From the NCBI GenBank assembly GCA_903928685.1, contig CAIYRS010000077.1, positions 1 through 64,000 of the forward strand: a stretch of 64,000 bases of DNA. Direction: 5' to 3'. Source of the DNA: an uncultured Methylococcaceae bacterium. GTDB lineage: Bacteria > Pseudomonadota > Gammaproteobacteria > Methylococcales > Methylomonadaceae. Below the pieces are notes generated by a model. It saw nothing but the letters and a program-made list of their open reading frames with translations, did no database searches and had not been told where the DNA came from. Shown in pieces: positions 1-58,653 of this stretch; the first letter of the stretch is position 1, and each line of letters opens with the position of its first letter. The position numbers and the translations under genes were made by a program.

Positions 1-265
1 CCCGTTTGCCGCGTCGAGCACCGGAGTATTTGTCGGGAATAGCCCGAAGGGGTGCGGCATGGATGCCGCACGGCGGCAGATGGGCAGGAAGCCCATTCTG
101 CCGTCCCCCGACAAATACCCCGCAGGGCACAAGTGCGAGGAGCGCAAGACATGAGCGGCAATCGGGCCGCCTTTTCTTTGGCTACTTGCTTTTGGCGGCG
201 CAAAAGAAAGTAGCTCGCCTTCGGGTGCGAGAACCCGATCAAAATAACTGTCGCGATAGCGACTC
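1..265. repeat. Dispersed ~260-bp intergenic repeat, copy 1
   Basis: This stretch is nearly identical to 53503-53750. Both begin cccgtttgccgcgtcgagca and end near gtcgcgatagcgactca, and both contain small hairpins, for example gtgcggcatggatgccgcac. Copy 1 has about 18 extra bases near 108-130 that copy 2 lacks. An open frame runs through it, but the same sequence occurs between genes elsewhere, so it is not annotated as coding. The window edge may cut the element. Confidence 0.8.
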
Positions 266-44474: not shown

Positions 44475-46184
44475 ATGAATATTCGCTTAGCATTTTTAGC
44501 AATAGTTTCTTTAGCTAGTTTTTCAAATTATGGCTATTCCGCAGTTTTGCCGACAGATGTTGCTAAAGCCTATGTGCAGGCAATTACTAACGGTACTGGC
44601 TCTAAGGTTGCCGGATCAATTGATTATGTGGCATTAGGTTGTACGGCGGCGACCGTATACGATGAACAAAAATGCCAAAAAATCGTTTTTAATGGCAAAG
44701 ATGGCAAAACGCTGCTGATGGAGTCGATTACGGCAAGCAATATCGCCAGCCTTATACCGATTGGTGATGTACGCAGGATTTACGGAAATGATCCGCAATA
44801 TGCAAATGTTCGGGAGCTGTTTTTTTTACTCAGCACAAAAAACAGCGGTTGGTATTCTGGGCTTGAAGGCGAAGACAAAGCCAAAGCCATTCTCCAGCGC
44901 CATCTTGAATCCAGCGGTCCAGGCGGCATGTACGGAAATTTTATCTGGCCATTTGATGCTTCAAGTCCGCAAAAAGCCAAAGTTACCTCGACTGGAGTTG
45001 ACTTTCTAATCGTATCCTTGCCGTCAGCGGCAGCCTTAGATGTTAATAAATCACCGCTCTACTATTGGGCTTTGCAAACTGATTTCAGCAATATGGCTTA
45101 TCCGCTAGGTTTTGATTTTGCAGGTGTTTCTGGTATCGACCCCAACCGTTGCAAAAACACCAAAGTGGCCTGGGGGCATGTTGGCCTGCAATACGCAAAA
45201 AACAATCCTAGCTTACCGAATAGCGTCCAAAAGCAAGCCAATTGGGGCGGCGGTGGCGACGGGTCGGGTATTGGTGATTACGGTTGCGGCGGCAGTGACG
45301 TTACCAAACTTAATTGGAAAGTCGGCACATGGTATGAATATCGGGTGAAGCGGGCTGTGAGACGCGCGCCAAAATTGTGGGAATGGGTGGGTGAAATCTA
45401 TAAAAAAGGTGATGCCGCCCCCATTTACAGTAAAACCATTTTTGGCGGCGAATATGTAACTTATGCGACCACATGGGCGGAGCTTATCAACGTCAGTTGC
45501 ACTTCCCCCAGATTAATTACCCAGTGGGCCAATCCTTGGATGGGTAATGCAGGCGGTAAATTTAGGGTTGGGCGAGTAAACTTAGAAAATGGTGCGGATG
45601 GCTGTTTACGCTCGAAAGAAATTATCTCCAACAAATGCCAAGCCAAATGGACACAATACCAAGGCGCGATTAGTCCGGCTACTCATGCCGCTGCAAATTT
45701 GCTACGCAAGACGAACTCTAGCGATATGCAAGAAGGCTATTGCGAGCGCGTACCTGATGCCACAGAAATTGCCATAGCGAAAGCTTATATCCAAGCAATT
45801 TCAGGAGGAACTGGCGCTAAGCGGGTATCGACTGCAATTGACTTTACTGCACTGGGTTGTAATGCGGACACTGTCTTTGATGATGGAAAATGCCAAGCCC
45901 CCGTCTTTAATGGCAAAGACGGTAAAACCGTACTCATGGAAGCCATTACCTCTGTATCGGACGGCAATTGGCATTCTTCCAACATACAGTCAATAATCCC
46001 CTTTGAGACCATCAACCGTATTTTGACCGATCCCAAATATGCCCTAGCGAAAGAGTTATTTGGCTATTTCTCTATGCAGAATGACGGCTGGTATGATTAT
46101 CTGGATGGGCCTGGGAAACCAAAAGATGTGATGTTCCAATACATAACCGCAGTGAATGCGGCCAATGCACTTAAAACTAAATAA
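44475..46184 (+). CDS. Secreted protein with internally duplicated domain, unknown function
   Basis: 569 aa with a signal peptide (MNIRLAFLAIVSLASFSN, cut near residue 23). Residues about 28-150 and 435-560 are homologous to each other: AKAYVQAITNGTGSK versus AKAYIQAISGGTGAK, FNGKDGKTLLMESIT versus FNGKDGKTVLMEAIT, and SGWYSGLEG versus DGWYDYLDG. Between them lies a Trp/Gly-rich segment (NWGGGGDGSGIGDYG, KVGTWYEYRVKRAV) with several cysteines (CKN, YGCGGSD, VSCTS, DGCLRSK, NKCQA), reminiscent of a carbohydrate-binding beta-sandwich. ATG at 44475 has GGAGGG upstream. No family recognised. Confidence 0.6.
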   Translation: MNIRLAFLAIVSLASFSNYGYSAVLPTDVAKAYVQAITNGTGSKVAGSIDYVALGCTAATVYDEQKCQKIVFNGKDGKTLLMESITASNIASLIPIGDVRRIYGNDPQYANVRELFFLLSTKNSGWYSGLEGEDKAKAILQRHLESSGPGGMYGNFIWPFDASSPQKAKVTSTGVDFLIVSLPSAAALDVNKSPLYYWALQTDFSNMAYPLGFDFAGVSGIDPNRCKNTKVAWGHVGLQYAKNNPSLPNSVQKQANWGGGGDGSGIGDYGCGGSDVTKLNWKVGTWYEYRVKRAVRRAPKLWEWVGEIYKKGDAAPIYSKTIFGGEYVTYATTWAELINVSCTSPRLITQWANPWMGNAGGKFRVGRVNLENGADGCLRSKEIISNKCQAKWTQYQGAISPATHAAANLLRKTNSSDMQEGYCERVPDATEIAIAKAYIQAISGGTGAKRVSTAIDFTALGCNADTVFDDGKCQAPVFNGKDGKTVLMEAITSVSDGNWHSSNIQSIIPFETINRILTDPKYALAKELFGYFSMQNDGWYDYLDGPGKPKDVMFQYITAVNAANALKTK

Positions 46185-46361
46185 TTTGCTAGCTCTTTTA
46201 TAGTTTGGGTGCTGGGATTTTATTGGATGATCTCAGCACCAACTGCCACAAAAATAAGAAATTCCTTTAGTTACTGAGCAATACGGAATTTCTCAACCTC
46301 GCCCAATTTTTTTAAATCAAAATGTAATGGAACGGGTAACAACCCCGTTCCAGCCTAGCAA

Positions 46362-47007
46362 TCATTCCCCAGAGGTAACAACCTCCAAATCATCCGCCAC
46401 CCCCGCCCAATTCAGCGGATAAACCCGCTCAGCTACATAACGATGGAAAGTTGAATAAGGCCAATCGGCAACGTGTTGGCAATAACCATGTTTGACGGGG
46501 TTGTAATGCAGATAATCGACGTGACGGTTAAAGTCGGATTGGTCACGGATTTGGTGTTCCCAAAAGCGGCGTTGCCAGAGCGTGGATTCCCGATGTTTAC
46601 GTTTGGACGCGTTCAGCCAATCGGCGCGGCGGTAATGTTCCCGACATTGGATGCTGACTTGGCGTTTAATCAAACCTCAACGGCTAGAAAAATCGGCATC
46701 GCCTTCCGGGCAACGTCCAAATGCTCGGCAACTGCTCCTGCGTTGCTCTACCTTCTGCATGACCCACATGGACGTGGGGAATGCAGATAGCGCAGGAGCG
46801 GCTATCTGTCCATGCAGTCGAATGCAAGTGGTCGGGCAACAACACCCACGCATCAATGGTGAATGGTTTTTGCTAGCGCACAGAGATGTTCGCTTCCCGC
46901 AAAGCCACCCGCACAGCCTCATCACACAAAATCGGCTGGCGGCGGAAAATCACAACCGTAAAAAAATAACACGCCCCTTGGGTGTTAGCGCGGCGGTAAT
47001 TGGACAT
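46362..47007 (-). pseudogene. REP-associated tyrosine transposase (RAYT), inactivated
   Basis: The start MSNYRRANTQGACYFFTVVI, the mid motif VLLPDHLH-IW (the HuH histidines) and the C-terminus RFWEHQIRDQSDFNRHVDYL, then HYNPVKHGYC and WPYSTFHRYV identify a Y1-type RAYT. Three lesions are visible: a TAG in place of a probable CAG after NISVR, a 96-bp insertion at 46725-46820 inside the HLHCIW codons, and a one-base insertion just after (cccgg for ccgg). A 103-aa frame at its 3' end remains open but lacks the HuH domain. Confidence 0.85.
46725..46820. mobile_element. 96-bp element inserted in the RAYT gene
   Basis: Removing it restores the codons D-H-L-H-C-I-W across ccaaatgc|aatgcaagtg. Its ends (cggcaactgctcc... 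and ...ccatgcagtcg) match both ends of the 48-bp insertion at 56401-56448. It has an extra 49 bases in the middle that themselves contain inverted segments. No target duplication is evident. Confidence 0.75.
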
Positions 47008-47043
47008 GGTTTAAGCGGTTGGTAGTTTGTGGTATTGGTATTC

Positions 47044-47128
47044 GTAGGGTGGGCAACGCTTTTCTGCCTTTATGCCCTTTAGGTACACCTTTTGCGGCAT
47101 GATTAGTTGGCAGAAAAGCGTTGTCCAC
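47044..47128. repeat. REP pair upstream of the RAYT gene
   Basis: gtagggtgggcaacgctttt and the inverted aaaagcgttgtccac frame a 40-nt spacer, the bulge-palindrome pair typical of RAYT-associated REPs. It starts 37 bp before the RAYT start codon. Confidence 0.7.
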
Positions 47129-47132
47129 ATGA

Positions 47133-49586
47133 CTAAAGTTTAATAGCGGCAGCAACAGAGTTAAAACTTTGTGCGCCCATTTTTTGAAGAGTAGGCCAAT
47201 CAAAATATACAGGAGGTTCACTAATTTTAGCCCAGCATTCGTTGAGATATTCGCTGAATTTAATGGTTCGATTATAGCGAACACCTATATCGAATGACTC
47301 TAGTTTTTTCAAAATGTCATTTCGATAAATTTCATCGAAAATTGGAGTGTCAAATAGTACCGCATCCATATAAGCAAAACTGGTTGCCCAATATTGGACA
47401 TGGTATACGCCAATAGTTGTAATTCGAAAAGCAAGAGGCATATCCCCAACAAGACCTTGTAAACCTTCATCAAAAGTTATTCGTTCAGTAGTTTCAACAA
47501 GTTTTTTATTTGTTAGTCGTCTCAATTTATGTTCTATCTGGTCACTAACAAAACCATATTTCTGCATTTCAGTTAGTAAATCAGCTGTCCTAACAAATCC
47601 ATCGGGTGATTTATGCTGTCCGTCACTAATCAGATAACTAATAATTATTGGAGAAAGAAAATGTTCTTTTTTATCTGGATATCGCACATCAAAAAGATTT
47701 AAAGCTAGCGATGATGGTGCGTGATAATGAGAATATGCACCTAATATTGCTTGTTTAGTAAATTCATGTAACGGAATCATATATTTTCCGTCGGTTTCCA
47801 TTATGTTAATGATTTTTTCTGAATCAACATTTGCACTGCCAATAAAATCTTTAATTAAATCTAGTGCTTGGCGTATGTTTCCGCCTGTAATATTGCTTAG
47901 AAGTCGATTAATTTCTTTGTTGTTTTGCAACGAAAATAATAAAGCTTTTAAAAACAATGCTATTGATTCTAGTTTTATATTTATGCCTTCTAAACGATCT
48001 AATTGAGATTTTCCTTCAGCTAAATCCAATGAAAACTTCAACCGCTTAACAAGAACTAAATCAACTCTTGGCGGTGATATAGTAATAATTCTCTGAGAAT
48101 AGCCGGAAATTGATCCTGAGAACTTTGATGCAAAATATGTCTGAGGGCGAAGTGAGACTAAAACTAGTGCATGCCAGGTGGCGGCAAATTCTTGTGCAGC
48201 CATGAAAGCATCCTGTTGATCTAAAGGTTTTCTTTGGTCTGCATTGTCAATTGAAATAATTACTTGCTTTTTTCTGCCTTTTGAAAAGTGTTCAATACTT
48301 CGCCGAAAATGCTCTACTTTATTTTTTGTCAGAGATTCAATAAATTGTATTTGGTGTTCAATGAATTTTTCTGGAGCTGATTCTTTTAGAGGAGCATAGA
48401 TTCCATTATCAAATCGCTGGATATCTCTATAGTAAATTCCTCGAACTGTATTATTTTCATATAAATCGACTTCATACTCCTCAAAAAGCTGCCTCTCGAT
48501 TTCTTCTAAAAAGAAGGTGTGTAAATCTTGGCCTAAATTAGCTTGGCTACCAAGATCAATATAGATAAATATCGAATTTTTAATCTCATCAATAGCTTTT
48601 ACAAAAATCAAATGTCTTATAAAAGATGTTTTTCCAACTCCTACATCGCCAATAATAACAATTGGACGCCTACCTAGTGCTTCAGCAACTGCTTCTGAAT
48701 CCATTCCATATTTGTCATTTGTAGAAGGTTTCAAACCCTGTAATTTTGGACTTTGTAAAGATGGATTAAACATCGCAGCATAGCGGGCTGATAGTATTTT
48801 CTTACCCACCAAAGCATCTTTAGCCAGAGCTCCACTTTCGCAATAACATTCTTCATAAAACCGTTTTCTATATGAAGGAGTATTTGGAGCGTCTTCAATT
48901 AATAGGTCACTTAACATACGTAAGCTTTGTTGCGAATCACTTGGATATCGAAAAGAAGGGTAACCAGGTAGATAGCTCGAAAGTTTTGCTGGTATCCCTG
49001 TTGGTACACTGGAAACGAGATCTTTTAATAATAATTTACGGTGTTCAGCTTCTGGTGAAATTGCTTGCCAAAGACGATGGAAGTTACTTTCAATTTGATC
49101 CCAGCCATTAAATAGTAAGCATTTTCCTTCTGATGGTGGTATTCCATCGTTTCTTACCCCGATAAAGATAATGATTTGTGTCATATTTGAAACAACACCG
49201 ATTTGTATGCCGCGATCACTACAATACTTTTGTGTTTGTTCGAAAGCAGATTGAAAATTTGAGCTCAATTTCAATAATGAACTTAGTGATCGGAGAATAC
49301 TGTTATTGGTTTCGCAAGGTATATCAAAGGAGTTTCCTGCGCGTTTCGCTTCGATTACTATTTGTGGAGGGACTCCAAGTTCGTAATCGCTATATTCCCC
49401 ATTAAATCTGCGTTCAAGATGTGTTTGATTGGGGTGCCACCCTAAGCATTCATGAATTAGGCGGTCTATGAATCTATGACGTGTATCAGCTTCATTAATA
49501 TCATAATTTTCATTTTTTATGTCTTCAAGTAGGCGCGATATGGCAATCTGACCAGCAGCAAGATCAGACGGTATAGAATTTGTCAT
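47133..49586 (-). CDS. PD-(D/E)XK nuclease-like domain fused to a P-loop NTPase; candidate defence protein
   Basis: 817 aa. The N-terminus (1-130) resembles type I restriction HsdR N-terminal/PD-(D/E)XK nucleases: FIDRLIHECLGWHPNQTHLE, then EYSDYELGVPPQIVIEAKRA, with D67, E79 and K81 as candidate metal ligands. Residues about 309-320 hold the Walker A motif GDVGVGKTS and about 440 a Walker B VIISIDNAD. The C-terminal ~200 residues look like winged-helix modules (DLLTEMQKYGFVSDQIEHKL, RRLTNKKLVE). The order nuclease-NTPase-helical C-terminus is that of STAND-type, Avs-like anti-phage proteins. ATG at 49586. It sits beside a toxin-antitoxin pair and mobile debris. Function inferred, family not proven. 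Confidence 0.7.
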   Translation of the reverse strand: MTNSIPSDLAAGQIAISRLLEDIKNENYDINEADTRHRFIDRLIHECLGWHPNQTHLERRFNGEYSDYELGVPPQIVIEAKRAGNSFDIPCETNNSILRSLSSLLKLSSNFQSAFEQTQKYCSDRGIQIGVVSNMTQIIIFIGVRNDGIPPSEGKCLLFNGWDQIESNFHRLWQAISPEAEHRKLLLKDLVSSVPTGIPAKLSSYLPGYPSFRYPSDSQQSLRMLSDLLIEDAPNTPSYRKRFYEECYCESGALAKDALVGKKILSARYAAMFNPSLQSPKLQGLKPSTNDKYGMDSEAVAEALGRRPIVIIGDVGVGKTSFIRHLIFVKAIDEIKNSIFIYIDLGSQANLGQDLHTFFLEEIERQLFEEYEVDLYENNTVRGIYYRDIQRFDNGIYAPLKESAPEKFIEHQIQFIESLTKNKVEHFRRSIEHFSKGRKKQVIISIDNADQRKPLDQQDAFMAAQEFAATWHALVLVSLRPQTYFASKFSGSISGYSQRIITISPPRVDLVLVKRLKFSLDLAEGKSQLDRLEGINIKLESIALFLKALLFSLQNNKEINRLLSNITGGNIRQALDLIKDFIGSANVDSEKIINIMETDGKYMIPLHEFTKQAILGAYSHYHAPSSLALNLFDVRYPDKKEHFLSPIIISYLISDGQHKSPDGFVRTADLLTEMQKYGFVSDQIEHKLRRLTNKKLVETTERITFDEGLQGLVGDMPLAFRITTIGVYHVQYWATSFAYMDAVLFDTPIFDEIYRNDILKKLESFDIGVRYNRTIKFSEYLNECWAKISEPPVYFDWPTLQKMGAQSFNSVAAAIKL

Positions 49587-49766
49587 TTTGATTTCCGTAT
49601 TATTTGCTAAGTTAATGAAAATATCTTGGCCTTAACTCGTAAGGCGGTTTCTGATATATGAAAACTTTAAAAGCACTCAGTTTTAGTTAGTTCTCAAGCT
49701 ACGTGTTTGGAACTAGTGAACTAAAGCCCCAAACCATCCAATTTATCAATCAGATAAAATTGTTGC

Positions 49767-50000
49767 TTATACGCTATGCGATTCAACATAAGCATCCAGT
49801 AATCTGCGTATCATCCGCTGGTATTGGGTGTTATTTTTAGCCGCTTCTGACTTGAAAAACTCAACACTTTTCTTACTCAACGCCAAGGTGACTTTAACCC
49901 CTTCTTCATTGAAAGCTAATTCGGCGGGCGAGGGCAGAAAATCTGCAATTATCTTTACGTCGCCCAAGGGTTCATTGGTATATTTTATTTTCGCGTTCAT
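49767..50000 (-). CDS. brnA: BrnA-family antitoxin
   Basis: 77 aa from ATG at 50000. The C-terminal half is a ribbon-helix-helix region (VKVTLALSKKSVEFFKSEAA, TQYQRMIRRLLDAYV), as in BrnA. The N-terminal half (YTNEPLGDVKIIADFLPSPA) contacts the toxin in characterised pairs. It overlaps the 3' end of brnT by 29 bp. It should neutralise BrnT and repress the operon. A 12-residue upstream extension with a weak start is rejected. Confidence 0.85.
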   Translation of the reverse strand: MNAKIKYTNEPLGDVKIIADFLPSPAELAFNEEGVKVTLALSKKSVEFFKSEAAKNNTQYQRMIRRLLDAYVESHSV

Positions 50001-50262
50001 AGATTGCCTTGCCTTTACGCCAGTAGCCAGCGCCAATAATTCGAATAACAGCGGCCCGATAAGTGAACCGCACGGTTAAAATTCCACCACCAACTGCTCC
50101 GAAACAATAGAAACGTTCTTCGGTTTGGCTGTGGGATTCGTCTTTGGCAATAATACGAAGAGGATCAGCAAAGGCATATTGGGCAACGGTAAATGAAATG
50201 CCGTGCTTTGCCTGATTCAACACATCTTTTTCTACATCCCATTCAAATTTTGTTTTTGCCAT
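49972..50262 (-). CDS. brnT: BrnT-family RNase toxin
   Basis: 96 aa. The family opening FEWDVEKDVLNQAKHGISF is present, with FADPLRIIAKDESHSQTEER (histidine and ERF segment) and VRFTYRAAVIRIIGAG. The canonical end IISAR-R-A-x-x-x-E-x-x-x-Y is changed here to IIGAGYWRKGKAIYE, so activity is uncertain. Together with brnA it forms a type II toxin-antitoxin module in the usual toxin-first order. ATG at 50262. Confidence 0.85.
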   Translation of the reverse strand: MAKTKFEWDVEKDVLNQAKHGISFTVAQYAFADPLRIIAKDESHSQTEERFYCFGAVGGGILTVRFTYRAAVIRIIGAGYWRKGKAIYERENKIYQ

Positions 50263-50316
50263 AATTTAAGGATAACAGTTGCCCATATTGTTCGCCATAC
50301 GTTTGTATGGGTGATT

Positions 50317-51600
50317 TTACATACTCTCCTCATCAATCCCCAAAACCTTCATCTCCAAGCCCTCAATCTCCTGCAAAGATTTCCCCGCTATTCCCTGCAA
50401 ATCGCCATACATGCCGACGGTGGCGTTCATTACCCGCTCGATTTGTGTTTGCCGTTTTGCCCATTGCTTCATGATGGCTTTGCGTTCTTTGTCCAGGTCT
50501 TCTTGCATGGTGGAGAAGGCTTCGACGATGGCTTCTACGCGTTGTTTGAAGCGCGGGCCGGTGAGGTATTGGTAGACCAGTTCGGTTTTGCCGTGTTGGC
50601 CTTCGGCGGCGAGGCGGGCGAGTCCGATTTGTTGCAGGGTGTGGCGGAGGATGGTGGCGACGGGGAGTGCTGCGCGGGGGCTGGTGACCCAGATGCCGTC
50701 GATTTCTTCGAAGTTTTCTACCCCTTTGGGCAGGGCGTGGCTGACCAGCACGGCGATGTCGGCTTTGGCGTTGCGTTGGTCTTCGCGCAGTTTCACCAGC
50801 CAGCCGTCGCTCCAGTTTTTGGTACGTTTGGTTTCCCATAATAGCGTGCCGCTGATTTGTCCGGTGGGGCTGATGACGCGTTGCAGGGCATCGCCCCCGT
50901 TGTCGCCTTTGGCAACGGGTTCGATGCTGTCATAGGGGAATTTGGCGCGGAGCATGGCTTCCAATTCCATTTCTTGGACTTCGCCTTGCAGTTGTTGCGA
51001 GCCTTGTTCGGCTTTGCGTTTGAGTTCTTCGATTTTTTGCTGCATGGAAGCGATGGTTTGTTCGCGTTCCAGCACTTTGAGGTTAAGGCTGTCTTCGGCT
51101 TCGCGTTTGGCTTGGGCGCGGACTTCACCTAGGCCGTCTTGGATGCGTTTGGCGACGGTCAATTCCAGTTCACGTTTGGCATCGTCAAGTTCGCGTTGTT
51201 TTTTGATGAGTTCGGCTTGGGCTTGTTGGGCTTCGGCGAGTTTGATGTCGCGTGCTTTGAGCACGTCGTTGAGTTCTGCCAGTTCGCGGGTTTTGCTGTC
51301 GATTTCGTTGGCGGCGGCTTGTTTGGCTTTTTGGCTTTCTTCGCTGATGATGCGCTGGCGTTCGGTTTGCAGTTGCGCGGCGACTTGTTGGGCGATTTGT
51401 TCGTCTAGCGTGCGTTTGGCATCTTGCAGTTGTTTTTGTTGTTCGCGCAGGCCGTTTTCGCGCTGGGCGATGTCTTGGTCTTTTTGTGCCAGTTGTTGTT
51501 CAAATTGCTGGCGGGTGGCGGCAATCAGCGGGGCGGCGAGAGATTCAGTTAGGCGGATTTCGGTGGCGCAGTTGGGGCAATGGATGGTGGGTTCGGTCAT
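50317..51600 (-). CDS. DUF2130 coiled-coil protein
   Basis: 427 aa. It opens with a zinc-ribbon-like CPNC (only one pair), then a long coiled coil (about residues 25-225, rich in Gln, Glu, Lys and Ala), followed by the DUF2130 domain with GTLLWETKRTKNWSDGWLVK and VSHALPKGVENFEEIDGIWV. The W-E-T-K and D-G-W segments look like a PD-(D/E)XK-type core. DUF2130 proteins are widespread in bacteria and of unknown role; a DNA-linked function is likely. 54 bp from brnT in the same direction. Confidence 0.85.
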   Translation of the reverse strand: MTEPTIHCPNCATEIRLTESLAAPLIAATRQQFEQQLAQKDQDIAQRENGLREQQKQLQDAKRTLDEQIAQQVAAQLQTERQRIISEESQKAKQAAANEIDSKTRELAELNDVLKARDIKLAEAQQAQAELIKKQRELDDAKRELELTVAKRIQDGLGEVRAQAKREAEDSLNLKVLEREQTIASMQQKIEELKRKAEQGSQQLQGEVQEMELEAMLRAKFPYDSIEPVAKGDNGGDALQRVISPTGQISGTLLWETKRTKNWSDGWLVKLREDQRNAKADIAVLVSHALPKGVENFEEIDGIWVTSPRAALPVATILRHTLQQIGLARLAAEGQHGKTELVYQYLTGPRFKQRVEAIVEAFSTMQEDLDKERKAIMKQWAKRQTQIERVMNATVGMYGDLQGIAGKSLQEIEGLEMKVLGIDEESM

Positions 51601-51793
51601 TGGTGATTTAATGGTGGTTATTGTTAGGTGGATGGGCGAGCGGTGTTAGTCCCTGCTTTTATAACATGTTTTTTGTGGTGGTTGATTTAAAGCGTTGTGG
51701 TTTGATTGGTTTTGGTGTTTTTGGAAAATTTCAGTGGTGTTAGCTGGTGAAGCCTTATGCCAGAGCACGGTGGTGATAGTCAATTTAACTTCT

Positions 51794-51876
51794 TAGGGGC
51801 GGACGGTTGTCCGCCTTTTTTAGGGGCTGTATCAAATTCTGTTGTGACAAGGCGAGCAGCCGCTCGCCGCTACGAA
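51794..51876. repeat. Dispersed hairpin repeat, copy 2
   Basis: ggcggacgg...ctgtatcaaa...aaggcgagcagccgctcgcc matches 30987-31060 in order and content. The region 51601-52291 has no gene; besides this repeat it holds the element 51930-52167. Confidence 0.7.
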
Positions 51877-51929
51877 GATAACAACAGTGTTTGCTGGTTA
51901 AGCGCGACGCTGGAGCGTCATTGGCGGCA

Positions 51930-52167
51930 TTCCCACGCTGGAGCGTCACTGCCATTAAGTTAAGAATTTATATTTCTTATCAATAGGATAGATTGGTTAC
52001 AGCAGGATTTTTCCGTTCGTCCTGAGCTTGTCGAAGGATGAACGGAAAAATCCGTGAGCAAAGACTTAAACCATTCATGCTTCGACAAGCTCAGCACGAA
52101 CGGTTTAAGTCTTTGGATCATATAATTTTTTCCTTAACTTAATGGCAGTGACGCTGGAACGTGGGAA
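51930..52167. mobile_element. MITE-like 238-bp element, uninterrupted copy
   Basis: The terminal inverted repeats ttcccacgctggagcgtcac...aagttaa and their complement are 34 bp with three mismatches. The centre carries the cttcgacaagctcaggacg palindrome pair and gagcaaagacttaaacc. A second copy at 56238-56524 is co-linear but carries a 48-bp insertion. Non-coding. Confidence 0.85.
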
Positions 52168-52291
52168 CGATGTTCATGCGCTTAACACCATCAGAAAGCA
52201 GCGAATATTTTTTAAAAATACACCATAATGCCGTCCACAAATTCCACTGTAATTTAGCTTGTCGGTTAGACTTTTAAGGGTAACTTTCGCC

Positions 52292-53407
52292 ATGAAAAAC
52301 ATCATTTCCTTCGTATTGTTGGTTTGTGCCAGTGCAACCTATGCCGCAGGGCCGGAAACAGTGGCTTCTGCGAATCGGGCGTTGTGGCCTGAGCTTATCG
52401 ACTCACCCACTGCGTTTGATAAAGCGTCGCGGGCGGAGATGTTGGTGTTTGCGGAGGTGTTGTCGCAAGTGAGTATGCAGAATGCGGAAACCTTAAAAAG
52501 CCAGTTGCGGATTAAAAAAGTCAATTTGGCGTCGGTGGAAAAGATTCGTAATAAATTGGCAGGGCAGTTGTTAAAAAACTGGCAAGTGGCGGTTTGCGAT
52601 AATGACGCGGTGTTTTGTCCTAAAATTACTAGCAGCCAAGACATGGTGGCGGCAGGTATCGGCTTAGCCGCCAAGTTACCGGAAAATTATCGCGCTTGGC
52701 ACAGTAACGCCAAGTTGTTCCATAAAAATTATGCCAATGAATTGATCCGCTTGGCGGCGTTGTTTCCGGCGGTGACCAGCGAAATCGACAGTTTTTCCGC
52801 GATTGAGCGCGATGGCAGTGAATTGCCGGATCGGCAATTTGTGCTGACTTTTGATGACGGCCCGACCAATAAAGGCGGCAACACCGATGCACTGTTGCCG
52901 TTGCTGCAAAAAGCTAAGTTGAACGCGACTTTTTATATGTTGGGCGAACGTTTACAAGCGCGTTTGCAACAAACTGATGCGGCGGTGTTGTCTGATAGTT
53001 TCCAAGGCCAATGTGTGGCTTTGCATGGTTGGGAACACCAATCCCATGCCAAATGGGATAAGTGGCAAGAATCTATTGAAAAAACCAACGCTTTGGTGAA
53101 AAAGACTTTTCCTAGCCAATATAGCGCTTGGTTCCGCCCGCCTTATGGGCAACGCAAAGCTGATAGCGAAGGGTTTTTCAAAAAGCAAAATTTGCAAGTC
53201 GGGCTTTGGAATATCGATTCTCAAGATTGGAACAACCATGTGAGTGGTGATATGGCAGCGCAACGGGTATTTACCTTAATGTTGCTGTGGCGGCACGGGG
53301 TCGTTTTGTTTCATGATGTCCATCCTAAAGCCTTAGTGGCTGTGCCTTGGTTGTTGGAGAAAACCAATAATACCGGGGTTGTTTGGAAATCTTGCCAAAG
53401 TTATTAA
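52292..53407 (+). CDS. Exported polysaccharide deacetylase-family (NodB-like) protein
   Basis: 371 aa with a signal peptide (FVLLVCASATYA). The NodB domain starts at FVLTFDDGPTNKGG (TFDDGP, catalytic and metal Asp). The two metal histidines are in HGWEHQSH, followed by RPPYGQRK (Arg/Pro substrate groove) and WNIDSQDW. The N-terminal ~150 residues are an extra helical region. It probably removes N- or O-acetyl groups from an extracellular or periplasmic glycan. ATG at 52292 with AAGGGTAA upstream. Confidence 0.85.
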   Translation: MKNIISFVLLVCASATYAAGPETVASANRALWPELIDSPTAFDKASRAEMLVFAEVLSQVSMQNAETLKSQLRIKKVNLASVEKIRNKLAGQLLKNWQVAVCDNDAVFCPKITSSQDMVAAGIGLAAKLPENYRAWHSNAKLFHKNYANELIRLAALFPAVTSEIDSFSAIERDGSELPDRQFVLTFDDGPTNKGGNTDALLPLLQKAKLNATFYMLGERLQARLQQTDAAVLSDSFQGQCVALHGWEHQSHAKWDKWQESIEKTNALVKKTFPSQYSAWFRPPYGQRKADSEGFFKKQNLQVGLWNIDSQDWNNHVSGDMAAQRVFTLMLLWRHGVVLFHDVHPKALVAVPWLLEKTNNTGVVWKSCQSY

Positions 53408-53502
53408 GTGTTTCGTGTTTTTTCTAAGGCTTTATTCAAAACTTCCAAAAGTATGCGTTCAAAAACTTTAATAACTAACTTTAAGCAGTAACGCGCTTTT
53501 TT

Positions 53503-53750
53503 CCCGTTTGCCGCGTCGAGCACCGGAGTATTTGTCGGGAATAGCCCGTTAGGGGTGCGGCATGGATGCCGCACGGCGGCAAAGGGGCAGGAAGCCCCTT
53601 TTGCCGTCCCCCGACAAATGCGAGGAGCGCAAGACATTAGCGGTAATCGGGCCGCCTTTTCTTTGGCTACTTTCTTTTGGCGGCGCAAAAGAAAGTAGCT
53701 CGCCTTCGGGTGCGAGTACCCGATTAGAAAAACTGTCGCGATAGCGACTC
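53503..53750. repeat. Dispersed ~260-bp intergenic repeat, copy 2
   Basis: Second copy of 1-265, with about 18 bases missing around 53616-53622 (cgacaaat joined to gcgagg). It lies between the deacetylase and VWA genes. Confidence 0.8.
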
Positions 53751-53834
53751 ATCAAAAAGTTAAAAGACTTATACGCCACCACTTAAACAACAATTGCCAT
53801 TAATCCTAACCAAAAAATCCAGGAGTTTACCGCT

Positions 53835-55574
53835 ATGCGTTCACCATTTATTACCTTAGTCAGCGGCGCGGCACTGGCGTTGTTGCCGCATTATTCATTT
53901 GCTGAAACCCGTGTGCAGGTGAACGCCAATGCCAACCAGTTTCCTTATGTCACCGTGCGGGTGCGGGTGGCTGATAGTAAAACTGGAAAGGCGGTTACCA
54001 ATCTGAGCAAAGACAAACTGTTGGTGTCGGAGGATTTATCGAAGGTTGAGATTGATGATTTCAAAATTTTCGATAGCCATGACAGTAAAAATCCGAATGT
54101 TGATGTCATGTTTGTGTTTGACCAAACAGGCAGCATGTCTGATGAGATTGCCGCGTTGCTGCAAAAAACCCATAAATTCGCCGATATGTTGGCGCAAAGT
54201 GGCAGTAATTTTCGCCTAGGCTTGGTGAGTTTTTCTGATAAAACCGAAAAAACCTTTGATTACACCGCGGATGTTGAGCAATTTAAGAAAAACGTTTCGA
54301 CCTTAACGGCGAACGGCGGCGATGATGAGCCAGAAAACCAATTGGATGCGCTGCTGGATGCCAGCAAAATCGCCATGCGCCCAGAAGCCAAGCGGGTGTT
54401 TATTTTAGTCACCGATGCCTCGTATCATTTTCAAGACAGTATCACCAAGCAACGGCCTGAAAACGTTATTAAAGCGTTGAAAGATTTAGGCATACAGTTA
54501 CACGCCGTAGGGCCGGAATTGGATTCTTATAAATCCATGAGCCAAAGCTTGGCGGGTAATTTTTACGACAAAGACAGTGACGATTTTTCTAGTATTGTCA
54601 GCAGTATCGGCGGGGAAATATCGGCAAATTACCAGTTTTCTTACCGTTCGCCGCGTATGTTGAACGATGGCACCCGCCGCGCTGTGCGCGTGGCCATGCA
54701 GGGTGATGCCGCAACCGATGCCGCGCAATATGTCGCGCCGTGGTTTACTACAGCTAGCTCTCGGCGTGAAGCCAGCCGAGGCGACGAAAGCCCGTATGCG
54801 CCGCATAAAGTCTTGGATGGCGACCCGGCAACCGCGTGGTATCCCAGTGAGATTGGTTTAGCCGATAACGAGTGGCTGCATTTTGCCTTACCAACCGAGC
54901 GTACCGTCAGCAAAGTGACGGTGAAAGCCGCACAAGGCCACGTTTTTGATGACAAAACCAAGGTGACTTTATCGGTTGATGGCGGCGATGATTTGTCGGG
55001 TGAAAATGCCAAAGACGGTACCTCGGTCACTTTTAACTTAGCCAAACCTGTGCCTGTTCGGCAGCTGCATTTTGATTTGCATGTGCCAGCGGGTGGGCAA
55101 TTGGGTATTGCCGATATTGACGTGTTTTTGCCAGACGGTAGCTTGATTCCAGAAATTGATATGCACCATGTCACGGTGGCGAGTAGGGAATCTGCCAAGG
55201 ATATTAATGCGCGTGGTGAAAAAGCCTATCACGCTAATAAAATCGATGAGTCAGTAAAACTGTATTTATCAGCAATTAACGCCGACCCAGAATATGCCCA
55301 AGCTTACAGTAACTTAGGCTTAAGTTATTGGAAGTTAAAGCAGTATCCAGACAGCGTTACCGCTAACCGTTCAGCGATTGCTTTGGGTAAGCAACAAGGC
55401 AATTTAACGGTTATGGCGAGTTCTTATTTCAATATCGCCAAAACGTTTGAAGAGCAAAAAGAATACAAACAAGCGTTGATGAATTTCTGGTGGGCGAACC
55501 AAACCACGCCAAAACCCGTTTATGAAAAAGCGATTAAACGCATGAATGCGTTGATTGCTAAGGATGCGGAATAG
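53835..55574 (+). CDS. Exported VWA protein with discoidin-like and TPR domains
   Basis: 579 aa. Signal peptide (LVSGAALALLPHYSFA). The VWA domain (about 90-270) has a MIDAS motif DQTGSMS (D96, S100, S102; Thr98 in place of Ser), DEPENQLDALLDA and LVTDASYHF. Residues about 310-450 resemble a coagulation-factor-5/8 (discoidin) carbohydrate-binding domain (PYAPHKVLDGDPATAWYPSE). From about 460, TPR repeats follow (YLSAINADPEYAQAYSNLGL, TANRSAIALGK). It is likely a periplasmic or surface adhesion or scaffold protein. ATG at 53835 after aggagtttaccgct. Confidence 0.8.
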   Translation: MRSPFITLVSGAALALLPHYSFAETRVQVNANANQFPYVTVRVRVADSKTGKAVTNLSKDKLLVSEDLSKVEIDDFKIFDSHDSKNPNVDVMFVFDQTGSMSDEIAALLQKTHKFADMLAQSGSNFRLGLVSFSDKTEKTFDYTADVEQFKKNVSTLTANGGDDEPENQLDALLDASKIAMRPEAKRVFILVTDASYHFQDSITKQRPENVIKALKDLGIQLHAVGPELDSYKSMSQSLAGNFYDKDSDDFSSIVSSIGGEISANYQFSYRSPRMLNDGTRRAVRVAMQGDAATDAAQYVAPWFTTASSRREASRGDESPYAPHKVLDGDPATAWYPSEIGLADNEWLHFALPTERTVSKVTVKAAQGHVFDDKTKVTLSVDGGDDLSGENAKDGTSVTFNLAKPVPVRQLHFDLHVPAGGQLGIADIDVFLPDGSLIPEIDMHHVTVASRESAKDINARGEKAYHANKIDESVKLYLSAINADPEYAQAYSNLGLSYWKLKQYPDSVTANRSAIALGKQQGNLTVMASSYFNIAKTFEEQKEYKQALMNFWWANQTTPKPVYEKAIKRMNALIAKDAE

Positions 55575-55644
55575 GGAAAAAGTCTGTCGTTCCCCGTGTT
55601 GGGTTACGCTATCGTTCGGCAACTGCTACATGTGTTGGCTTTGT

Positions 55645-55675
55645 AGGATGGGCTGAACGAAGCGAAGCCCATCAT
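55645..55675. repeat. Partial copy of the taggatgggctga palindrome
   Basis: gtaggatgggctgaacgaag...cccatcatgg resembles one half of 9962-10038. Upstream, gggttacgctatcgttcggcaactgct (55605 on) shows fragments of two other repeat families, so this gap is composite. Confidence 0.5.
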
Positions 55676-55753
55676 GGGGGGTATTGAGATTGATGGGTTT
55701 CTTATCGTCAGCCTATCGCCTTTTATGTTTTGCCAATCTGAGGGTTTGAAAAT

Positions 55754-56167
55754 ATGTCTCTACGCTATGCAATCAAGTTTAAAAGTGAGCAATTTGATTT
55801 TCAGTCGGAATTGCCGGAGGAATACAATGCGGGTAACCGCTTTTACGGCAAAGATTTGGCGGAGTATCTGACCAATAGCTTTCTGGCAAGCGGGCTAGTT
55901 GCTGATTTTTTGGATGAAGATTGGGGCTGGTTGGTGTTGGGTTTAATCGGCGAGGATTTGCATTTTGATGTCGCTATCTACAATCTTCTGGATGATAGCG
56001 AGCAGCCGAGCAATGAATGGGGGCTTTGGGTTCACGCTTATGGGAAAGGCAAGATTCTTGGCTTTATTCCCAAAAGGGTTGAAATTGCAGTGCCGCAGTT
56101 TGTTGTCGATGTTATTAATATGGCGATTAAATCGGTTGCTTATGATATTGGTGATTGGGACGATTAA
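55754..56167 (+). CDS. Hypothetical acidic protein
   Basis: 137 aa, acidic, rich in Asp, Glu and Trp (FLDEDWGWLVLGLIGEDLHF, EWGLWVHAYG, ending DIGDWDD). No family recognised; the composition and small size resemble some immunity or antitoxin-like proteins, but no toxin is adjacent. ATG at 55754 with tctgaggg upstream. It lies between the VWA gene and the second 238-bp element. Confidence 0.5.
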   Translation: MSLRYAIKFKSEQFDFQSELPEEYNAGNRFYGKDLAEYLTNSFLASGLVADFLDEDWGWLVLGLIGEDLHFDVAIYNLLDDSEQPSNEWGLWVHAYGKGKILGFIPKRVEIAVPQFVVDVINMAIKSVAYDIGDWDD

Positions 56168-56237
56168 GCCGTTGTTTAAGGCTAAATGATAGGCTTCCTT
56201 GCTTCTCACCAGTAAATAAACAATGCTGGATGATGAA

Positions 56238-56524
56238 TTCCCACGCCGGAGCGTCACTGCCATTAAGTTAAGAATTTATATTATCTATCAATAGGATATA
56301 TTGGATGTAGCAGGATTTTTCCGTTCGTCCTGAGCTTGTCGAAGGATGAACGGCAAAATCCGTGAGCAAAGACTTAAACCATTCATGCTTCGACAAGCTC
56401 CCGGCAACTGCTCCATGCGTTGCTCTACCTCCTGCATCCATGCAGTCGAGCACGAACGGTTTAAGTCTTTGTACCGTATAATTTTTTCCTTAACTTAATG
56501 GCAGTGATGCCGGAGCGTTGGAAC
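56238..56524. mobile_element. MITE-like 238-bp element with a nested 48-bp insertion
   Basis: Co-linear with 51930-52167 over its whole length, but with 48 extra bases at 56401-56448 between gacaagctc and agcacgaacgg. The gap 56168-56578 holds this element plus a gcaaaacatgttttgc palindrome (56533-56548) and no gene. Confidence 0.85.
56401..56448. mobile_element. 48-bp insertion inside the MITE-like element
   Basis: ccggcaactgctccatgcgt...ccatgcagtcg. The empty site is preserved in the sister copy (52085-52101), so the borders are exact. A longer relative with the same ends sits at 46725-46820. No inverted ends or target duplication were recognised. Confidence 0.8.
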
Positions 56525-56532
56525 TATAAAGC

Positions 56533-56548
56533 GCAAAACATGTTTTGC
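56533..56548. repeat. Palindrome gcaaaacatgttttgc
   Basis: A 16-bp perfect palindrome with the same AAACATGTTT core as 14494-14529 and 60372-60399. It lies 31 bp beyond the stop of the GldG-like gene and may terminate that operon. Confidence 0.5.
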
Positions 56549-56578
56549 ATTCCTAAAGCGTAGCAATCACCTTAAAAA

Positions 56579-57898
56579 TCACCGCCGTCTACGGCTCAGC
56601 CACACTAGCACACCCCCCACCAGCAACATAAACGGCATTACCAGTAAAAAGCCAAACCCCATTAAACTCACTGCAACGGCAGGTAATTCTAGGTGTTTAT
56701 CCGGGGCGATTTTTGCGGGTAGGTCGATGAATTTATCGTCGTGGATTAACCAGTTGATTATCCGTAAACCCATATCCATATTGCCGACGTTGGCAAGATA
56801 GCTGTTCGCCAAAAAATCACCGTCGCCGATGACTACGACGCGTTGTTCGTTGTTGTTTACGGTTCTGGTCAGGGTGTAGGCAAATGCTAATGGTCCGGAT
56901 TGTTCATTGGCATCTTTGCTGATAGTGCCTTGCATGGCGGTTTCTTGCCAAGTTTTGTCGCCGCTTTCTAAGAGTTTTTGCGACTTAAATTCGTTGGGGT
57001 TTAAGGTGAAAGAGCTTGCTGCCGGATACACGGTAATTAGCTGCATGCCACGGCTAATGGGGCTTGTTGGGTAGTTGTTGGCAATCACAAAGCTAGGATT
57101 GTCCAAACCGTACAATTTTCCGGTAGTGTCGGCGATAGTGCCGGGGTTTTGCTTTAAGCCCAGATAATCCAGCAAGGGTTTTAGGTTGCTGTTATTGGGT
57201 TCGGTCATCAGCAACAAATTGCCGCCGTTTTGTAGATAGCTTTTTACCAAATCGATTTCGCCTGCCAATAAAGGTACAGTGGGGGAGGCAATCGCCAGCA
57301 TGTTGGTGTTGTCGGGGATGCTGTTCAGTTTGGTCAAATCAAGGTTGATGGCGGTGATTTTACGACGCGCCAGTTCTTTGCCAAATTGGCCTAAATCAAA
57401 ATTGGCGATGCCGTTTGGGTTGCGTTCGCCGTGCCCACTTAAAAAGCTGATCCAACGTTGTTCGCTGTTAGCCAGTTGCAATAAGGCGTTGGTGAGCGTG
57501 GATTCATCCAGAAAGCCTAAGGTTTCGCTGCGGCCTTGGTAGCTGACTAAAATCGCTCCTTGTTCGCCGATTTCTAATTCCCTTGCTTGTTGCGGTTGGC
57601 TTTCGGGGTCAACAAACTGGAAGCTGATATTGTTTTTGTGTTGTTGGTAACGGGTGATTAGTTGGGCGATTTGTATACGCAGCGGCATGCCACGTTTGAT
57701 GTAAGCGGTGATGGTTATCGGTTCGGGCAACTTATCCAGCAAGCTGATACTGGCGGCAGTTAGGGTATTGCTTTCGGCGGCGGTCAGGTCATGTCGTAAT
57801 GGGTAGCTTGCTGTCAACCACGCCAAACTGGCGATCAGGCCTAGGTAGGCGAGGGTGGTTAAACGGTGTCGGTTGCGGGCAGTGAGGCGTAAAGTCAT
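56579..57898 (-). CDS. GldG-family ABC-transporter accessory protein
   Basis: 439 aa with an N-terminal membrane anchor (LTTLAYLGLIASLAWLTASY) and a C-terminal one (VSLMGFGFLLVMPFMLLVGG) ending in arginines. The periplasmic middle has the DUF4350/GldG pattern: SLLDKLPEPITITAYIKRGM, FVDPESQPQQARELEI, WISFLSGHGERNPNG, NMLAIASPTVPLLAGEIDLV and VVVIGDGDFLANSYLANVGN. It overlaps the permease gene by 4 bp (ATGA). Together with the two genes upstream it forms a GldAFG-like exporter; in other bacteria such systems support gliding, copper or nitrous-oxide-related export, but no such partners are here. Confidence 0.85.
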   Translation of the reverse strand: MTLRLTARNRHRLTTLAYLGLIASLAWLTASYPLRHDLTAAESNTLTAASISLLDKLPEPITITAYIKRGMPLRIQIAQLITRYQQHKNNISFQFVDPESQPQQARELEIGEQGAILVSYQGRSETLGFLDESTLTNALLQLANSEQRWISFLSGHGERNPNGIANFDLGQFGKELARRKITAINLDLTKLNSIPDNTNMLAIASPTVPLLAGEIDLVKSYLQNGGNLLLMTEPNNSNLKPLLDYLGLKQNPGTIADTTGKLYGLDNPSFVIANNYPTSPISRGMQLITVYPAASSFTLNPNEFKSQKLLESGDKTWQETAMQGTISKDANEQSGPLAFAYTLTRTVNNNEQRVVVIGDGDFLANSYLANVGNMDMGLRIINWLIHDDKFIDLPAKIAPDKHLELPAVAVSLMGFGFLLVMPFMLLVGGVLVWLSRRRR

Positions 57899-58653
57899 TG
57901 TGGCAAGCGCTCGCTGGCTAGATGGCGGATGCTCAGTAATAAAAATCCGCCGCTAAATAATAAAAAATAGCCAATGTCGGCTGTGCTGAGCAGTCCGCTT
58001 TGCAGGTTTTGGTAATGCCTCAGGATAGACAGGTATTCCATTAATGGGTTGGGTTGGTCGCGGATGGCGGTGCTCCAGTCCATAATCCACAGCAATAGCA
58101 ATGTGCCGAATGCCCCCAACGCCGCTACCGTGGGATGCACGGCGATACAGGACATGTACAGGCCAATACTGGTGAATGCCGACATCAACAAAAACAAGCC
58201 GATAACATTGGCAAACAGTTTGCCAAAATCCAGTGTGCCGCCAATTAATAACGACAAGGGCATCACTGTGATAAGTACCAGCACTACCGATAACAAACCC
58301 AGTACGCCAAGAAATTTGCCCAGCACAATGTCGGTGATGGACACGGGCGCGGACAGTAGCAAAGGCAGGGTTTTGTTGCGGCGTTCTTCACAAATCATAC
58401 GCATGGTTAGCAGCGGGGTGACCAGTAATAGCACGATGCCAGCATTGCCAAATAACGGTGGCACAATAATGTCGGTAAGGCCGGGGCCGTTTACCATTGC
58501 CGCCAGTTTGCTTTGTAAGGTGACGAAAGTTTCCACTTGCGTTAAAAACAGATACGCCAAAATCAATTGCAATATCGCCAGCACTGTCCACGCCAGTGGC
58601 GATAAAAACAGCGATTTGAATTCACGGGCGGCAATCGCTAACAAGTTACTCAT
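57895..58653 (-). CDS. ABC transporter permease, GldF/NosY-like
   Basis: 252 aa, six hydrophobic segments (AWTVLAILQLILAYLFLTQV, LFGNAGIVLLLVTPLLTMRM, IVLGKFLGVLGLLSVVLVLI and others). The EERRNKTLPLLLSAPVSITD loop is typical of ABC-2 type permeases. It is coupled on both sides by 4-bp overlaps with the ATPase and the GldG-like gene. Confidence 0.9.
   Translation of the reverse strand: MSNLLAIAAREFKSLFLSPLAWTVLAILQLILAYLFLTQVETFVTLQSKLAAMVNGPGLTDIIVPPLFGNAGIVLLLVTPLLTMRMICEERRNKTLPLLLSAPVSITDIVLGKFLGVLGLLSVVLVLITVMPLSLLIGGTLDFGKLFANVIGLFLLMSAFTSIGLYMSCIAVHPTVAALGAFGTLLLLWIMDWSTAIRDQPNPLMEYLSILRHYQNLQSGLLSTADIGYFLLFSGGFLLLSIRHLASERLPQ

Follow-up and report, generated by a model that had tools for sequence, protein, structure and literature searches.

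Introduction

Among the known sequences that most resemble the element considered here are REP and REPIN repeats, which are short palindromes that carry GTAG beside a hairpin, are dispersed at high copy number, have C^T or C^A junctions (^ marks a junction throughout), and sometimes lie inside palindromes or genes (PMC3733652, PMC8266576). Characterised TnpA-REP enzymes cut C^T and C^A dinucleotides, and action on the GTAG strand has been reported (PMC8266576). RPE-4 and RPE-6 of Rickettsia are CGTC-tagged REPs, a group defined by a terminal CGTC tag, an 8-9 bp stem beginning with AT, and a CCA tail; earlier work has described REPs located within palindromes or genes, as well as in-frame RPEs (PMC3733652). 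The ends of IS200/IS605 elements and their non-autonomous derivatives have two subterminal hairpins without inverted ends or target duplication, and a single-stranded mechanism is presumed. The small dispersed repeats (SDR) of cyanobacteria are very small and are thought to insert precisely.

The 47- or 48-bp element found in the window (the whole 64,000-nucleotide stretch of DNA that was analysed) shares each of the REP and REPIN properties listed above. Unlike them, it is composed of two dissimilar hairpins in fixed order, forms a near-identical unit across genera, has a GTAG that is internal and spaced, and was not found as the flanking cognate repeat of the RAYT (REP-associated tyrosine transposase) genes that were checked. 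As with Rickettsia palindromic elements (PMC3733652), it is a short palindromic insertion that lies in frame within a variety of conserved genes, but its consensus lacks the CGTC tag, the AT-start stem and the CCA tail, its sequence is different, it resides in Gammaproteobacteria, and it has a defined W^G junction. It shares with IS200/IS605 ends the two subterminal hairpins, the absence of inverted ends and target duplication, and the presumed single-stranded mechanism; however, it is far smaller, has no conserved tetranucleotide 5' of the insert, and in the examined loci no Y1 tnpA gene was found between two hairpins. The original prediction that the element matches no IS or MITE is borne out, and neither the terminal inverted repeats nor the target-site duplication of a MITE accompany it. 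Its likeness to SDR, by description only, lies in tiny size and precise insertion.

No prior description of the unit was found in the open literature, a body of work outside which most subscription journals fall, and an exact-sequence text search of open papers gave one match, which appeared irrelevant. Within the open literature searched, the chimeric two-hairpin unit, its breadth, and its recurrent insertion at the RAYT active site appear to be new. Mobility of the element is strongly supported by the sequence comparisons presented below. We favour, with a probability of roughly 0.55, the reading that it is a REP/RPE-like, non-autonomous element of two hairpins that moves as single-stranded DNA through the action of a Y1 (RAYT-type) transposase, with the enzyme inferred from the pattern of insertion.

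Results

Structure of the element

Read on the minus strand of the window, the unit is CGACTGCATGGATGCAGGAGGTAGAGCAACGCA(T)GGAGCAGTTGCCGA, with a 47-bp consensus and a 48-bp form whose second hairpin (H2) has a loop longer by one base. Among 156 copies with distinct flanks, 87 are 47 bp, 65 are 48 bp and 4 are 49 bp in length. Folding of the unit as single-stranded DNA gives two hairpins (z = -3.7 versus dinucleotide shuffles), where H1 is CTGCA-TGGA-TGCAG and H2 is GTAG-a-GCAACGC-AGGA-GC-a-GTTGC. The GTAG is located 5' of the H2 stem at a distance of one base and is internal to the unit. Variation in the H1 stem is compensatory, since all variants (CTGCA/TGCAG, CTCCA/TGGAG, CGGCA/TGCCG, CTACA/TGTAG and CCCCA/TGGGG) are paired. 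The earlier description of the element as having no inverted ends is therefore correct with regard to classical terminal inverted repeats, but the ends are structured by these two subterminal hairpins. No Rfam family scored above its gathering threshold when window positions 46000-58000 were scanned. Integron attC sites were considered and rejected because the core GTTRRRY is absent from the consensus, as read by eye. At three other loci (L057, L146 and L148), related hairpin modules (CGAC..GGA and GGTAGAGC..CGA) whose stems covary form mosaic arrays, as if single hairpins were joining in varied combinations.

The relevant features of the window are as follows.

56401-56448, minus strand: 48-bp element copy, at the arm/loop junction of a palindrome within a MITE-like repeat
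56238-56524: filled host repeat, MITE-like, with terminal inverted repeats of about 35 bp (inverted and direct repeats)
51930-52167: empty host repeat, with the insertion point between 52092 and 52093
46725-46820, minus strand: 96-bp long form of the element, flanked by AAATGC and AATGCAAG
46452-47001, minus strand: RAYT pseudogene (NCBIfam NF047646) with its HUH motif interrupted at the HLH^C codon
53663-53694, plus strand: empty site in the second host palindrome (TTGGCTACTTTCTTTT^GGCGGCGCAAAAGAAA)
178-209, plus strand: second empty site, in the same host palindrome as 53663-53694

Re-reading of the coordinates and alignment of the flanking blocks of the filled and empty host repeats (95% and 90% identity) confirmed that 48 extra bases lie exactly at 56401-56448, and that the uninterrupted join is gacaagctc^agcacgaacgg. 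This copy starts with CCGG on the plus strand, and other copies start with TCGG. Both MITE-like repeats also contain a separate, very abundant palindrome.

The 96-bp unit splits the HLHCIW codons of the RAYT gene as had been proposed, with matches to NF047646 on both sides (46452-46712 and 46819-47001), and it is in frame, adding 32 codons without a stop. It is indeed a relative of the 48-bp element, as it has the same ends plus 48 bp of additional hairpins inside the H1 loop. The statement that the middle varies by 49 bp holds against the 47-bp form, but the difference from the 48-bp form is 48 bp. Relatives with other H1-loop inserts, forming nested hairpins and totalling 65 to 97 bp, are present in further genomes.

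Insertion sites and junctions

A total of 112 usable sites, comprising 46 site families, were evaluated. Insertion is exact, with zero bases duplicated or lost at the target, and the picture of a small unit that inserts precisely, has conserved ends and leaves no target duplication applies at many loci. For several host-repeat families that are independent of one another, the flank joins exist uninterrupted elsewhere, in some cases without mismatches and in others with them, although some of the entries among the listed empty joins are themselves element copies. In the window, the palindrome with the join TTTT^GG is empty at both 53663-53694 and 178-209. The CT^GAG palindrome, which is the window's own host palindrome, has 98 exact empty-arm pattern matches in this genome versus about 18 filled arms. 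Since empty arms outnumber filled ones, the 51930 copy is most readily understood as a site that has not been filled, and its origin by deletion from the 56238 copy is not supported.

The junction is W^G in 36 of the 46 site families, compared with a background of 12% (P about 7e-25); its complement reads C^T or C^A, as in REP and REPIN sequences. Although the G at +1 and the A at -1 could in principle be partly derived from the element, their presence in empty sites shows that these are target bases. Insertions often lie in or beside the loop of another palindrome, and empty sites have a mean folding energy of -6.6 kcal/mol versus -4.8 and -4.6 kcal/mol for controls (P = 4e-5 and 1e-5), which is moderate evidence for a hairpin-target preference given that many site families are themselves repeats. 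At three loci (L155, L175 and L188), GTAG-type REPs carry the element at the 5' stem-loop junction.

Recurrent insertion at the catalytic codon of RAYT genes

Eight divergent RAYT genes carry the element at the same catalytic HUH codon. Seven of these places, in six genomes, were recovered by searching 311 genomes of the order for the HUH-codon pattern, and the eighth (L263) has diverged sequence. Across the class, 369 sampled genomes yielded only the window's own copy, and RAYT insertions are therefore known from a single order. Of 18 flank-read copies in four genomes belonging to one genus, 6 are at the HUH codon, a fraction biased upwards by the choice of genomes with an HUH-codon match, and none was recognised elsewhere in a RAYT gene. 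One RAYT frame (L130/L206) is otherwise intact, and alignment to the solved TnpA-REP structure 4ER8 places the element exactly after HLH; most RAYT genes with an insert are otherwise broken. All of these inserts are 48 or 96 bp and hence keep the frame.

The element may recognise the conserved HUH-codon DNA of RAYT genes and insert there repeatedly, in the manner of a tiny homing parasite that silences the class of enzyme to which its possible mover belongs, and we advance this explanation tentatively. A competing account, restricted to the RAYT finding and in our judgement doubtful, is that one or a few old events were spread by recombination or gene conversion, for which the highly conserved codons around HUH could provide short recombining tracts. 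However, in a FastTree phylogeny of RAYT proteins, in which some supports are modest and L263 forms a long branch, interrupted genes occur in at least four places and several adjoin intact genes; for example, interrupted L208 pairs with intact L234 (support 1.0). Moreover, identity is 63-81% between the 150-bp flanks but 81-98%, and mostly above 90%, between the 48-bp inserts, and one RAYT copy (G199) shares a 20-base core variant with a further copy in that genome. These three observations all argue against spread from a few events.

Copy number and spread

This genome carries about 30 copies of the element. A full-length pattern gives 27 exact matches in the assembly and a shorter pattern gives 29, adding the 96-bp copy and a few diverged ones (reversed-pattern controls, 0 in each case); as products of pattern searches, these counts are lower bounds for diverged copies. 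Searches for the end motifs, as originally suggested, found them genome-wide and in other genera, and not confined to the window. Within the genus, 9 of 20 genomes carry the element, and it also occurs in at least 118 stretches from other Gammaproteobacteria, with Methylobacter, Methylovulum, Shewanella, Sedimenticola, Thiohalomonas, Endozoicomonas, Lysobacteraceae, Zhongshania and others among the matches listed. One Shewanella genome has 112 pattern matches and Methylobacter marinus has 25. Head-to-tail arrays with a 47-bp period occur in Shewanella inside a larger palindromic repeat (L065, L067, L069, L097, L126 and L135). Strand orientation in two genomes (G676 and G677) looks mixed, which says nothing about a strand bias relative to replication because host-repeat hitchhiking confounds it. 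Carriage by phages was considered and set aside, as the phage collection gave no match and viral contigs only four.

Most copies in this genome are at the same point of two host palindromes, and the majority of sampled Shewanella copies are within one palindromic repeat type. This distribution would be expected if a few insertions into palindromic repeats had been copied along with their hosts (MITEs, REPs) and the element itself were not mobile now. We regard this as unlikely in light of the 46 distinct site families, the in-frame copies in many unrelated genes, the separate RAYT-tree branches, and the occurrence of both the 47-bp and 48-bp forms in each host palindrome of this genome.

Copies inside protein-coding genes

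Open frames run through the element at twelve in-gene loci, and all twelve copies are of the 48-bp form. The association is indicated by Fisher tests by copy (P = 2e-5) and by family (P = 0.004), or with P = 7.6e-4 when the in-gene set is widened to include two 47-bp copies from transposase remnants, but these values are only indicative because the list was made by hand from open frames and domain matches, so that frame-keeping length was itself a criterion. Domain searches identified a squalene-hopene cyclase (L066), HrpA (L141), NifN (L120), UvrC (L115), a CbiJ fusion (L080), an HsdR-like protein (L121) and a SagB-like nitroreductase (L070). Alignment to solved homologues reveals a 16-residue insert at the element in HrpA and squalene-hopene cyclase; for NifN the gap is given as about 16-19 residues because the flanks differ too. 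Four weaker cases (L062, L072, L153 and L163) have an open frame alone, or a domain match that stops short of the insert. In addition, a 33-base element remnant lies in frame within BREX pglX of Moellerella (L217, NZ_CP093250.1, 1501-1533), with DNA matches in a Salmonella plasmid and two E. coli genomes (ZF34/ZF31), which suggests an old insertion retained as protein sequence.

For very small repeats, insertion at the RNA level followed by copying back has been speculated. A hairpin RNA inserted into transcripts or single-stranded DNA would fit the tiny size and conserved fold of the element, as well as the presence of in-gene copies in both orientations. This route is nonetheless improbable, given that many target sites are intergenic palindromes and that a junction of C^T/C^A is in keeping with a DNA nuclease. 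Replication template switching at hairpins, which would need no dedicated enzyme and has in its favour the hairpin-enriched targets and the nested hairpins in the H1 loop, is very improbable because identical 47/48-bp borders recur at dozens of unrelated sites and because the recurrent RAYT codon is not a stable hairpin.

Discussion

We return to the preferred reading, that of transposition as single-stranded DNA by a Y1 enzyme. The element would move in folded form after a Y1/HUH enzyme of the RAYT (TnpA-REP) type, acting in trans, cuts at C^T or C^A, and the strand would be pasted into the same dinucleotide where it is exposed in a single-stranded or hairpin target. Frame-breaking insertions in housekeeping genes would be lost, so that the 48-bp form survives in genes. 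Insertion into a RAYT gene probably abolishes the transposase, after which the gene would decay. Some copies, such as those in the Shewanella arrays, probably spread further as passengers of larger host repeats.

At least one RAYT-family match is present in every element-bearing genome that was checked for RAYTs. Several observations count against this model. The shared transposase that the original prediction proposed to look for did not materialise: neither a transposase linked to the element nor an autonomous parent was found in the examined loci, and these loci also have no paired half-elements around a gene. Apart from two doubtful exceptions, the repeats that flank the checked RAYT genes are other GTAG-REPs; at L240 a full element lies downstream of a RAYT gene, but inside a type A palindrome. 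The agreement with TnpA-REP cleavage is partial, because the GTAG of H2 is on the strand opposite the C^T junction. Furthermore, RAYTs also occur in three genomes of the genus that lack the element, and the genome richest in copies, that of Shewanella KJ10-1, has only one weak RAYT match. The W^G junction could also be produced by some other nuclease. Separately, in the REPs that flank a RAYT gene at L221 (1319-1394 and flanks), the loop contains the same GGTAGAGCAACGC core as H2, which is a possible clue to the origin of the element.

Direct evidence on how very short palindromic repeats move is scarce. In this system, the sequence reveals the borders, the empty sites, the dinucleotide at the junction and the copies within genes, and so defines a concrete substrate for in vitro cleavage. 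The in-frame inserts of 16 residues illustrate how small elements add peptides to conserved proteins. If the RAYT insertions are confirmed as independent events, they would provide an uncommon example of a mobile element that disables a second one by striking its active site.
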